This document shows positions 20,525-39,434 of a stretch of DNA of 57,983 nt, piece after piece. The stretch's first letter is position 1. Every line of letters starts with the position of its first letter. The DNA is taken from positions 21,008 through 78,990 of the forward strand of contig JAPLUV010000017.1 in assembly GCA_026397395.1 (NCBI GenBank), in the 5' to 3' direction. Origin of the DNA: a candidate division SR1 bacterium (GTDB taxonomy: Bacteria > Patescibacteriota > Gracilibacteria > Absconditabacterales > Absconditicoccaceae). A program made the position numbers and the translations under genes. The notes below the pieces were generated by a model that saw only the letters and a program-made list of their open reading frames with translations, made no database searches and was not told the DNA's origin.

Positions 20525-20618
20525 CTTCAGTGCTGTCATTCTGAGAGTAACGAAGAATATAATTGTTCTATTATATCCTTCATTTCGCCTGCCTGTCGGC
20601 AGACAGGTTCGAAATGAC
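20525..20618. repeat. Palindrome-bearing intergenic repeat
   Basis: Contains CCTGCCTGTCGGCAGACAGG (20588-20607) inside a larger inverted arrangement of TGTCATT...and AATGACA. Relative of the elements at 4081 and 33847. No coding potential. Confidence 0.65.
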
Positions 20619-20626
20619 AAGAGGGA

Positions 20627-21211
20627 TTAATACTTCTCACAATTCACTACATAATAATTAGCATCATGATCACAGGAAGGACATTTCATTGGGGGATTTT
20701 TTCCTTTGTGAATGTATCCACACTTGGTACACATCCATTCGATATCTTCTGCTTTTTCCATTAATGTTCCTGCTTGAAGCTGATCGCGAACTGCTTGATA
20801 TCTCGCCTCATGATGTTCTTCTGCATGAGAGATAGCTAAGATACGATCTGCAATTTCGTCTAATCATTCTTCTTTGGCAATCTTAGCAAACTCTGGATAA
20901 AGATCTTGATTTTCGTGATGTTCACCATTGATGGAATATTGTAAATTGTCTAATGTTGTACCAATTTTTACGAATGCACCTGTATCGACAACGACTTCAT
21001 CCATATCTTCTCCTAGCTTTGCTTTGACCATTTGGATCATTTTAAAGAATCGAGATGCATGTTCTTTTTCTTGTTCTGCCGTAGCTTCGAAGATATCTGC
21101 AATTTGTAGGTATCATTCTTTCCTCGCAGCACTTGCGTAGATGGCGTAGCGGTTTCTTGCCTGTGACTCCCCAACGAATGCTTTGGTCAGGTTAGTTAAT
21201 GTTTGTTTCAT
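20627..21211 (-). CDS. Rubrerythrin
   Basis: 194 residues. The N-terminal diiron domain contains FVGESQARNRY, AEQEKEHASRF, and HAEEHHEARYQ, giving the Glu and His ligands. The C-terminal rubredoxin domain has CTKCGYI and CPSCD. Rubrerythrins reduce hydrogen peroxide in anaerobes and microaerophiles, so this suggests a low-oxygen lifestyle with peroxide defence. Two TGA glycines. Confidence 0.95.
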
Positions 21212-33846: not shown

Positions 33847-33866
33847 CCTGCCTACCGGCAGGCAGG
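33847..33866. repeat. 20-bp palindrome CCTGCCTACCGGCAGGCAGG
   Basis: Exact copy of the unit also present at 39000-39019 and 54684-54703, with variants at 4082, 20588 and 52211. It lies just upstream of the terminator of the LRR-protein gene. Confidence 0.75.
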
Positions 33867-35834: not shown

Positions 35835-35908
35835 GCGGATATGATGTAATTGGTGTAGCATAGCAGACTTCAGCTCTGCTCGTACGGGTTCGAGTCCCGT
35901 TATCCGCT
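35835..35908 (+). tRNA. tRNA-Gly(UCA), decodes UGA as glycine
   Basis: Acceptor GCGGATA pairs with TATCCGC, discriminator T. Anticodon stem GCAGA / TCTGC encloses loop CTTCAGC, giving anticodon TCA, which reads UGA. T stem ACGGG / CCCGT with TTCGAGT loop. Glycine identity features of bacterial tRNA-Gly are present: G1-C72, C2-G71, G3-C70, U73 and C35. This is the molecule that assigns UGA to glycine in this genome and explains the in-frame TGA codons everywhere in the window. Confidence 0.93.
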
Positions 35909-36290: not shown

Positions 36291-36297
36291 CATACCT

Positions 36298-36555
36298 GGG
36301 CCCTTAGCTCATTTTGGTAGAGCAGGCGCGGTGAACACCGGCCGGGTAAGTGGTTCGAATCCAAGTTAAACAAAAAAGTAAAATAATATTGCCCATGTAT
36401 ATGGGCCCTTAGCTCATTTTGGTAGAGCAGGCGCGGTGAACACCGGCCGGGTAAGTGGTTCGAATCCAAGTTAAACAAAAAAGTAAAATAATATTGCCCA
36501 TGTATATGGGCCCTTAGCTCAAACAAAAAAGTAAAATAATATTGCCCATGTATAT
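36298..36555 (+). repeat. Tandem degenerate tRNA-Ala copies (105, 105 and 48 bp units)
   Basis: Units begin at 36298, 36403 and 36508 with GGGCCCTTAGCTC, the 5' end of the intact tRNA-Ala at 36556. Units 1 and 2 keep the 5' half to TAGAGCA but then switch to a different 3' half (GCGGTGAACACCGG and a T-like arm) whose end cannot pair with the acceptor. Unit 3 has lost 57 bases. The units share the tail AAACAAAAAAGTAAAATAAT and TGCCCATGTATAT. None is a plausible functional tRNA. Confidence 0.8.
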
Positions 36556-36629
36556 GGGCCCTTAGCTCATTTTGGTAGAGCACCTGCTTTGCACGCAGGG
36601 GGTGAGGGGTTCGAATCCCCTAGGGTCCA
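36556..36629 (+). tRNA. tRNA-Ala(UGC)
   Basis: Acceptor GGGCCCT / AGGGTCC includes the G3-U70 pair that defines alanine tRNAs. Anticodon stem CCTGC / GCAGG, loop TTTGCAC, anticodon TGC. T arm GGGG / CCCC with TTCGAAT. Discriminator A. Confidence 0.95.
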
Positions 36630-36735
36630 AATTGTAATTTATAGTTCAGAATTCAGAGTGCAGAAAAAAGTAAATCAATCAAAAAACACCTTCATTCTGC
36701 ATTATACATTCTACACTCTACACTCCATTCACTAT

Positions 36736-36818
36736 GGGGAGATGGCAGAGCGGTCAATTGCATCAGACTGTAAATCTGACGCCTCACGGCTACGTTGGTT
36801 CAAATCCAACTCTCCCCA
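36736..36818 (+). tRNA. tRNA-Tyr(GUA)
   Basis: Long-variable-arm tRNA of 83 bases. Acceptor GGGGAGA / TCTCCCC, anticodon stem TCAGA / TCTGA, loop CTGTAAA with anticodon GTA, variable arm near GCCTCACGGC, T arm TTGG / CCAA. A GIY-YIG gene starts 21 bases downstream and a degenerate copy of this tRNA follows that gene. Confidence 0.95.
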
Positions 36819-36839
36819 AATTTATTATCAATTAACCAT

Positions 36840-37088
36840 ATGGTAAGTTGATTTGTCTATGTACTTTCCATGAATAATGGAAAATATTATGTCTGAAGCA
36901 CCAATGATTTGGAAAGAAGAATTGTCCAGCATCAAAAGTGATATGTCAAAGCAACTAAATTGTATGTTCCTATTTGATTATTGTACTCCAAAAAATATGA
37001 TACAATAAAAGAAGCAAGACAAGTAGAATACTTGCTCAAGAAACAAAAAGACAGAAAACAGATCGAAAAATTTATGCAATGATTTTAG
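36840..37088 (+). CDS. Small GIY-YIG endonuclease next to tRNA-Tyr
   Basis: 82 residues with six TGA glycines. GFVYVLSMNNGKYYVGSTND carries the GIY-YIG strand pair (VYV and YVG), followed by LERRIVQHQKG with the catalytic-type Arg, and an acidic QVEYLLK helix with the Glu. This single-domain family cuts DNA; many members behave as homing or repair-type nucleases. It sits between the intact tRNA-Tyr and a degenerate tRNA-Tyr copy that starts two bases after its stop, suggesting that the gene and copy moved in together. Confidence 0.85.
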
Positions 37089-38334: not shown

Positions 38335-38682
38335 ATGGTTAGAGTAAAAAATGGTCTCCAGAGACAAAGAAGACACAAGAAATTTATCAAACTTGCAAAA
38401 GGGTTTAGACTCGGTAGAAGCAAAGTATACAAGCAAGTAAGATTGGCACTGGTCAAACAAGGACAACATGCCTACCAAAATAGAAAAGAAAAAAAGAGAG
38501 AGTTTAGAAAACTCTGGATCGAGAGACTTTCTGCCGTTATCAGAGAAAATGGAGGTAAATACAGTACTTTCATTGCTCAGATGAATGACAAAAACATTAT
38601 GCTTGACAGAAAAGTGATGTCTAATGTAGCAGTAGCGTTTCCTGAAGTGTTTGCAAAAGTATATGAAACAGTAACGAAATAA
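38335..38682 (+). CDS. rplT: Ribosomal protein bL20
   Basis: 115 residues. Basic head MVRVKNGLQRQRRHKKFIKL, KGFRLGRSKVYKQV and WIERLSAVIRENGGKYSTF are diagnostic. It binds 23S rRNA early in assembly and in many bacteria also represses this operon. Ends in a terminator at 38693. Confidence 0.96.
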   Translation: MVRVKNGLQRQRRHKKFIKLAKGFRLGRSKVYKQVRLALVKQGQHAYQNRKEKKREFRKLWIERLSAVIRENGGKYSTFIAQMNDKNIMLDRKVMSNVAVAFPEVFAKVYETVTK

Positions 38683-38727: not shown

Positions 38728-38977
38728 GAGAATAACGTTTGGAGTTGCTTTTGTGTGAAAACAAAAATTCGGAAATTCGAAAATTGTTTTGGAATAATTT
38801 GAACATTCGAATATTTGTACATTATGTTTGTGCCCGGGTGTGCCAAGCTTGCCCAAAAGCACAAGTGCATACGTAGTGATTTTGGAAGCAAGCTTGAGCA
38901 TCCCGCAATACTGCGGGAGTGGTAATTGTAAATTGCATACAGATGAATCTATTGTTAAAAGTACACTAAAGAAAAAT

Positions 38978-39035
38978 GCCTGGGTGGTGGAAAGGTAGAC
39001 CTGCCTACCGGCAGGCAGGCACAAGGGACTTAAAA
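38978..39035 (+). pseudogene. Truncated tRNA-Leu copy with inserted palindrome
   Basis: GCCTGGGTGGTGGAAAGG and TAGAC copy the 5' end of the tRNA-Leu at 39321 with one change. A 20-base palindromic unit then interrupts it, and ACAAGGGACTTAAAA resumes the tRNA through the end of the anticodon loop. Similarity stops there and the next 30 bases lead to the GIY-YIG gene. Confidence 0.85.
39000..39019. repeat. 20-bp palindrome inserted in tRNA-Leu copy
   Basis: Exact CCTGCCTACCGGCAGGCAGG. The intact tRNA-Leu reads TAGAC directly into ACAAGG at this point, so the insertion is precise and 20 bases long. Confidence 0.8.
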
Positions 39036-39067
39036 CCTTACATGATGTTTTATATCATCGATATATC

Positions 39068-39313
39068 ATGTACACTGTTTATGCAATAAAGAGTAGGAAC
39101 CATAATTATATTTATGTTGGATTAACTGATTGTCTGGAAAGAAGATTATCTCAACATAATTGAAAGCATGCAACAGCTACGCAGTTCTATGCTCCATTTG
39201 ATTTATTCTTCTCTGAAACTTATCCGACAAGAGTCGAAGCAAGGATAAGAGAGAAATATTTGAAATGATGATCTTGAAAGGAATTCTTAAAAAAGAAGTT
39301 GGCAGAATTATAG
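39068..39313 (+). CDS. Small GIY-YIG endonuclease next to tRNA-Leu
   Basis: 81 residues. YTVYAIKSRNHNYIYVGLTD holds the GIY-YIG pair (VYA and YVG), DCLERRLSQHNGKHA the catalytic Arg helix, ARIREKYLKGG the conserved Glu, and EFLKKKLAEL the end. Three TGA glycines, including the GG in YLKGG. It lies between a truncated tRNA-Leu copy and the intact tRNA-Leu, which starts seven bases after its stop. A second such gene lies beside tRNA-Tyr; the two share little beyond the family core. Confidence 0.88.
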
Positions 39314-39320
39314 AATACAT

Positions 39321-39401
39321 GCCCGGGTGGTGGAAAGGTAGACACAAGGGACTTAAAATCCCTCGACGCAAGTCGTGCCGGTTCGATCCCGGCTCCGGGT
39401 A
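39321..39401 (+). tRNA. tRNA-Leu(UAA)
   Basis: 81-base tRNA. Acceptor GCCCGGG / TCCGGGT (two G-T pairs), anticodon stem AGGGA / TCCCT, loop CTTAAAA giving TAA, variable arm CGACGCAAGTCG, T arm GCCGG / CCGGC. Discriminator A. Confidence 0.93.
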
Positions 39402-39434
39402 TATTATACATATATTTCTACAGCTGTCGTGTAT

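Follow-up and report, generated by a model that had tools for sequence, protein, structure and literature searches.

In tRNA-integrating islands and in the Allomyces mitochondrial atp6/ORF360 insertion, the target gene is restored and a partial copy of it is displaced; the islands rely on tyrosine integrases, and an identical repeat of the attachment site remains. SegB of phages T4 and T6 is encoded by a GIY-YIG gene that lies within a tRNA gene cluster, reads in the same direction and specifies an enzyme that cuts inside tRNA genes (PMC13096335; PMC2988022) and drives amplification of the tRNA and the nuclease gene (PMC13096335). The motif reported for SegB, RAWTSGAAC, corresponds by our reading to the universal T-loop sequence in reverse complement. 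GIY-YIG ORFs are also reported from non-intronic insertions within rRNA genes of CPR bacteria, and most insertions lie at the tops or bases of stem-loops (PMC11270868). For CGTC-tagged REPs, a published survey reports no associated or dedicated transposase (PMC3733652). The tRNA-Leu(UAA) locus described here, from a 57,983-nucleotide stretch of a candidate division SR1 genome (the window, from the first letter of which positions are counted), belongs to a widespread class of tiny units that probably target tRNA genes. Each unit has one intact tRNA, with partial copies of the same local tRNA on one or both sides of the tRNA and its nuclease gene.

At this locus, infC, rpmI (L35) and rplT (L20) are followed on the + strand by a 5' partial copy of tRNA-Leu(UAA), a GIY-YIG gene and an intact tRNA-Leu(UAA), the only one found in the assembly. 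The features, with the partial copy defined by alignment to the local tRNA, are:

38335..38682, + strand: rplT (ribosomal protein L20), conserved upstream neighbour and anchor of the empty-site comparison
38977..39035, + strand: 5' partial copy that covers nt 1-39 of tRNA-Leu(UAA) and is split by a palindrome
39000..39019, no strand: palindrome CCTGCCTACCGGCAGGCAGG, 20 bp, between tRNA nt 23 and 24, just 5' of the anticodon stem
39068..39313, + strand: GIY-YIG nuclease gene, 81 aa, TGA read as Gly, UPF0213/SLX1-like, active-site residues conserved
39320..39402, + strand: intact tRNA-Leu(UAA)

These coordinates bear out the initial annotation, which placed a damaged copy upstream, then the nuclease gene, then an intact tRNA-Leu starting 7 nt past the stop codon. 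Its claim that similarity ends at the 3' edge of the anticodon loop also held, as nt 39, the end of the partial copy, is the last base of that loop; overlooked, however, was the palindrome at 39000-39019, which divides the copy into nt 1-23 (38977-38999) and nt 24-39 (39020-39035), with one mismatch. The partial copy is not ascribed to chance because its first 24 nt gave E=8.8e-5 in a whole-genome search and because a Leu(UAA) partial copy with an identical palindrome and an identical end point recurs in a second species (L035). The nuclease ORF contains four TGA codons and is open only if TGA encodes Gly; TGA is glycine in the window genome, where many genes are open only under NCBI table 25 and a tRNA with anticodon UCA is present at 35835. 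Upstream of the partial copy, a more decayed tRNA-Leu-like stretch at 38831-38918 (TGCCCGGGTG.., with palindrome TCCCGCAATACTGCGGGA) suggests a trace of an earlier round.

The other unit of the initial annotation, with mirrored order, was likewise confirmed approximately 2 kb upstream, where an intact tRNA-Tyr precedes a nuclease gene of a different clade and a 3' partial copy. Two nuclease-free partial copies of tRNA-Ala lie in tandem nearby, and tRNAs for Met, Cys and Gly, as well as Ala, have such copies in the window genome. The features of this region are:

36297..36362, + strand: 5' partial copy of tRNA-Ala (nt 1-64), anticodon arm replaced, without a nuclease gene
36402..36467, + strand: tRNA-Ala nt 1-64 again, as a tandem 5' partial copy, arm replaced
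36555..36630, + strand: intact tRNA-Ala
36735..36819, + strand: intact tRNA-Tyr of the mirror-order unit
36840..37088, + strand: GIY-YIG nuclease gene of the mirror-order unit, 82 aa
37091..37161, + strand: tRNA-Tyr nt 16-85 as a 3' partial copy, with CCCGCGGTGAAACCGGGG in place of the anticodon arm TCAGACTGTAAATCTGA

Membership of the Leu(UAA)-unit protein in the GIY-YIG superfamily was evident from its Pfam domain (E=6e-16, with GIY-YIG matches only) and from conservation of the catalytic Tyr, Gly, Arg, His and Glu (active-site pattern Y, Y-x-G, R, H and E). The nearest solved structures are UPF0213 (1zg2, E=7.9e-18) and SLX1 (E=1.4e-7), with which Foldseek concurs and behind which I-TevI ranks. 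The AlphaFold2 model (pLDDT 94.9) of this 81-aa protein comprises the GIY-YIG fold and a C-terminal helix only, and no DNA-binding module was seen next to the nuclease domain. The tRNA-linked proteins, of 73-98 aa, all lack an added module of this kind and thus the pairing of nuclease and DNA-binding module that marks free-standing homing endonucleases of the SegA-G type. Given this absence, targets may plausibly be selected by structure (hairpin or cruciform). Orthology with UPF0213/YhbQ was rejected, as the tRNA-linked proteins, L009 excepted, fall outside the YhbQ-like clade. The analogy drawn in the initial annotation to group I introns, for which the anticodon loop of tRNA-Leu(UAA) is a classic insertion site in other bacteria, was not upheld: the Rfam scan revealed no intron family, the tRNA is intact and uninterrupted, and the nuclease is of the UPF0213/SLX1 type without a DNA-binding extension.

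Alignment of 62 partial copies with their local tRNAs identified the anticodon arm as the focus of change, since the native arm was altered in 61 and intact in one; its position is mostly occupied by a GC-rich palindrome. Copies upstream retain the natural 5' end of the tRNA, and those downstream its natural 3' end. The acceptor 5' strand was kept in 90% of upstream and 9% of downstream copies, the acceptor 3' strand in 4% and 99%, respectively, and the D arm in 98% of upstream copies, most of which also preserve the bases beside the anticodon arm. A perfect hairpin of at least 6 bp was present in 37 of the 48 copies of an earlier set compared with 7% of shuffled pieces, and typical hairpins (TCCCGATAAATCGGGA, GTCCGGTATCGACCGGAC and CCCCGCCTTGGCGGGG) recur in unrelated phyla. 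Some of the replaced arms in Flavobacteria look like the native loop on a stronger stem. The view of the anticodon loop as target was therefore sustained insofar as the arm is the part commonly altered (61/62), but not with respect to the loop edge as a general breakpoint, which was rejected from the scatter of end points. A search for the same boundary beside other GIY-YIG genes found it in the second Leu(UAA) unit (L035), and this end point is common to the two homologous Leu(UAA) units only; in the remaining upstream copies the end lies mostly at nt 44-64, from the variable region to the T loop, and the start of most downstream copies lies at nt 2-19.

The palindrome families of the partial copies are also dispersed away from tRNAs in the window genome. 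Their density is approximately 8 times higher within 250 bp of tRNAs. Dispersed palindromes of the forms CCTGCC..GGCAGG, TCCCGC..GCGGGA and CCCCGG..CCGGGG were noted at window positions 33847, 54683 and 4082 (see also L086-L105), and such palindromes are sometimes nested inside other REPs, as in the GTCATTTCGAA..GAAATGAAGGAT repeat at window position 20592. Some palindrome-bearing copies are called by tRNA finders as odd tRNAs (Asp-AUC, tRNA-??? or a 'stop' tRNA; L123:2230-2307, L107:375-446 and L181:1738-1806), and such calls may contaminate tRNA inventories.

Association of small GIY-YIG genes with tRNAs was noted well beyond the window. Four of the eight GIY-YIG matches in the window genome adjoin tRNAs (Leu-UAA, Tyr, Leu-UAG and Val-GAC), and at 29 loci of relatives, which involve Leu, Tyr, Val, Phe, Lys, Trp, Arg, Met, Ala and Gln isotypes, genes situated no more than 170 bp from a tRNA were on the strand of that tRNA in every case (29/29). 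A tRNA was present within 250 bp at 24 of the 30 top loci examined in a sample of 192 Patescibacteria genomes (same strand, 24/24), and 22 of 30 loci in Flavobacteriaceae were tRNA-linked (same strand, 22/22); chance adjacency was rejected from these two samples. Further cases came from a scan of GTDB genomes, with phylum names taken from record titles, in Nitrospirota, Desulfobacterota, Bacteroidota and several CPR lineages, and those with a tRNA within 250 bp comprised 12 on the same strand and one, from Treponema (L129), on the opposite strand. The query for this pattern scan was a single protein, as a profile of 25 tRNA-linked proteins was too diverse. With all samples pooled and duplicates removed, nuclease and tRNA were on one strand in 84 of 85 cases. 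A phage- or plasmid-carried unit was rejected, as tblastn with the Tyr-unit protein returned three weak phage and nine weak plasmid hits; a scan of viral contigs gave one weak match.

Direct repeats flank 23 of 25 tRNA-linked genes compared with none of 14 YhbQ-like genes. Inverted terminal repeats, which exceeded the control in 6 of the same 25, were rejected as ends of the units. In tandem arrays of Flavobacteriaceae, the repeated unit comprises a tRNA piece, a terminator and the nuclease gene and has a period of approximately 300-390 bp, and 5' partial copies are repeated in L010 and L069. One flavobacterial array (G334:C1:1215157-1216951) consists of five tandem GIY-YIG genes at a spacing of exactly 391 bp.

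Empty sites were found on alignment of close relatives. Between rplT and tRNA-Leu(UAA), the nuclease gene and 5' copy are present in two genomes (G000 and G004), whereas six others of the same genus (G001, G002, G005, G006, G007 and G008) have an intact tRNA-Leu(UAA) with neither nuclease nor upstream copy; two of the latter (G002 and G007) carry a downstream 3' tRNA-Leu fragment with a T-loop palindrome and no nuclease gene. Similarly, within one Bacteroidota genus, a nuclease array occupies the tRNA-Val site in G284 while a clean tRNA-Val and terminator follow a similar upstream flank in G360, G361 and G362. In this presence and absence of an allele at one site among relatives, the units agree with free-standing homing genes of the SegA-G type. 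A conserved element of about 100 bp (GTAGCCAATAATGAACCCACC..AGACGTCGAAATGAATG), seen 3' of tRNA-Leu(UAA) in six genus members (L078 and L080-L084) and missing from the window genome, could represent either the decayed remains of a 3' tRNA copy or an RNA of unknown kind. Scattered breakpoints and partial copies without a nuclease, both named in the initial annotation as telling against it, do occur, yet clean empty alleles exist. Its core idea, a nuclease element that invades tRNA genes, gained support from these alleles and from recurrence across phyla, and its argument that two mirrored loci are not due to chance was strengthened by recurrence of the nuclease-in-tRNA unit in both orders and by the empty sites of relatives.

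Sequence comparison points to a local origin of the partial copies. Of 129 positions that distinguish a local tRNA from the same tRNA in another genome, the copies agreed with the local one at 128, a count slightly biased by the fact that copies were found by alignment to the local tRNA, and import of copies by the element from another species was rejected on this basis. On the nuclease tree, tRNA isotype required 10 changes compared with a shuffled mean of 17.1 (0/300 as low), while genome of origin required 18 compared with 19.8, indicating no clustering by genome; tRNA linkage, with 4 changes compared with 19.5, is restricted to few places in the tree. Since palindrome and end point are common to both Leu(UAA) units, the tRNA part has been renewed or kept identical and the palindrome inherited.

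In a separate clade of small GIY-YIG genes (clade b), 11 of 14 loci had a GTCAT-palindrome-ATC repeat on either side, the pair being inverted, compared with 1.15% of control windows. These repeats are CGTC-type REPs. The flanked loci are L002 and L006 in the window genome and L018, L019, L023, L027, L034, L054, L063, L029 and L010 in relatives, and solo GTCAT-type repeats are scattered in the window genome, for example at window positions 20534-20640.

The reading we favor, with a probability of roughly 0.55, is homing-like break and repair by a tiny mobile unit, a UPF0213/SLX1-like GIY-YIG gene inside a tRNA transcription unit, that would regenerate the tRNA it enters. The nuclease would make a break in or close to the anticodon arm of an empty tRNA gene; repair templated by a donor allele would then install the nuclease gene and rebuild a complete tRNA. 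The leftover of the target would persist as the partial copy, the palindrome-altered arm of which would be immune to recutting and yield no working tRNA; later rounds, or recombination between direct repeats, would produce tandem arrays, nuclease-free copies and loss. Orientation would be fixed because the gene would be read from the tRNA's own transcription unit, which it must not block. As judged from the sequence comparisons, such repair fits the presence and absence of alleles, tracking of isotype, the regenerated tRNA, the altered leftover arms and the fixed orientation. Against it are the scattered breakpoints, the partial copies without a nuclease gene and the want of a DNA-binding module such as GIY-YIG homing enzymes usually have, which leaves recognition of one particular tRNA unaccounted for. 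In addition, the intact tRNA beside the nuclease has a native anticodon arm and must therefore be protected by something else, and random mutation would escape cutting as well, so homing alone does not explain the repeated GC-rich palindromes.

The palindromes are better accounted for by hairpin-ended transposition, in which the palindrome-bearing tRNA pieces would delimit a small transposon, much as REPs do in RAYT/REPtron and subterminal hairpins do in IS200/IS605. Such pieces would be moved by a GIY-YIG nuclease that is structure-specific and processes hairpins or cruciforms, with tRNA genes chosen as hairpin formers. We know of no case of such transposition by a GIY-YIG enzyme and consider it doubtful, although deserving of attention. 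Points in its favor include the dispersal of palindrome families and their enrichment near tRNAs, the structural proximity to UPF0213 and the branched-DNA nuclease SLX1, the sister clade between inverted REP palindromes and the stem-loop positions of CPR rRNA-gene insertions with GIY-YIG ORFs (PMC11270868). However, the ends of the units are direct rather than inverted repeats, and they match the local tRNA and do not travel with the element. The local match would also be expected if SegB-like breaks in tRNA genes and unequal recombination had duplicated pieces in place without horizontal homing, as might the tandem arrays of Flavobacteriaceae and the 5' copies that recur in L010 and L069; in T6, segmental amplification of tRNA-Tyr together with segB is promoted by SegB (PMC13096335). 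Such local amplification is nevertheless unlikely as the whole explanation, for it accounts neither for arrival at empty tRNAs of the same isotype in scattered genomes nor for the replaced anticodon arm.

Preservation of the D arm and of the bases beside the anticodon arm in most upstream copies, together with the flavobacterial arms that resemble a strengthened native stem and loop, could instead reflect selected RNAs that serve as leader, decoy or processing signal and either control the nuclease, then a host gene, or respond to tRNA-targeting toxins. This is quite improbable in view of presence and absence within genera, tandem arrays, breakpoints that remove either half of the tRNA and copies that stand alone with no nuclease gene. 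Many of the sequences come from metagenome assemblies, and nuclease-free copies are what might be left by ordinary tRNA pseudogenes or by artefacts of assembly at a recombination hotspot where a nuclease lies by chance; but the same architecture in unrelated phyla, the near-absolute strand bias, the isotype-tracking tree and the single-contig genomes among the hits (G184, G206 and G047) make this scarcely credible.

If homing-like repair is correct, an essential and usually single-copy class of gene, the tRNA, is parasitized by an element that is forced to rebuild its target, and the element would resemble a natural cleave-and-rescue drive. The class of units would account for many tRNA pieces that have unusual anticodon arms and are listed by tRNA finders under strange isotypes, and it offers a testable role for one of the commonest 'hypothetical nuclease' families of CPR and Bacteroidota, annotated only as GIY-YIG. 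The sister clade is a candidate enzyme for CGTC REPs, left without a transposase in the published survey (PMC3733652). Tentatively, and at somewhat less than even odds, small SLX1-like GIY-YIG nucleases may constitute a new class of palindrome-associated mobile elements, one branch of which would invade and regenerate tRNA genes and make hairpin-bearing repeats while a sister branch would mobilize CGTC-type REPs. A literature search on GIY-YIG with REP, palindrome, tRNA or CPR found no earlier description, which is weak evidence as subscription papers and preprints were outside its scope.

Compared with known systems, the units look like an undescribed kind of tRNA-targeting mobile element. 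In sequence and fold their proteins are closest to UPF0213/YhbQ/YazA and SLX1, a family of structure-specific nucleases, but the YhbQ-like gene occurs about once per genome in the genus and lacks flanking repeats, whereas the tRNA-linked clade is separate and multicopy. The sister clade b resembles RAYT/REPtron in having a small nuclease gene between palindromic repeats with scattered solo copies. RAYTs, however, are HUH tyrosine transposases associated with GTAG-tagged REPs, and assignment of the tRNA-linked units to that system was rejected, as their proteins gave only GIY-YIG matches and their flanks are tRNA-derived direct repeats. Restoration of the target and displacement of a partial copy are shared with the Allomyces atp6/ORF360 insertion and with tRNA-integrating islands. 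Identity with such an island was rejected, as the Leu(UAA) unit contains a single 81-aa nuclease ORF, no integrase gene was seen within the units of approximately 350 bp and the repeats differ at the anticodon arm. With the CPR rRNA-gene insertions (PMC11270868), the units share nuclease superfamily, bacterial radiation and a structural RNA gene as target outside group I and II introns, but those insertions interrupt rRNA genes whereas here the target tRNA is regenerated and a partial copy remains. As with SegB, a GIY-YIG gene is found among tRNA genes and read in the same direction; in T4 and T6 the gene lies between tRNAs, whereas here an arm-altered partial tRNA copy accompanies each gene, the units are chromosomal and involve many phyla and isotypes, and the protein is without a DNA-binding module. 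By analogy, then, the unit would work like a free-standing GIY-YIG homing gene, minus the DNA-binding module and plus an arm-altered tRNA copy.
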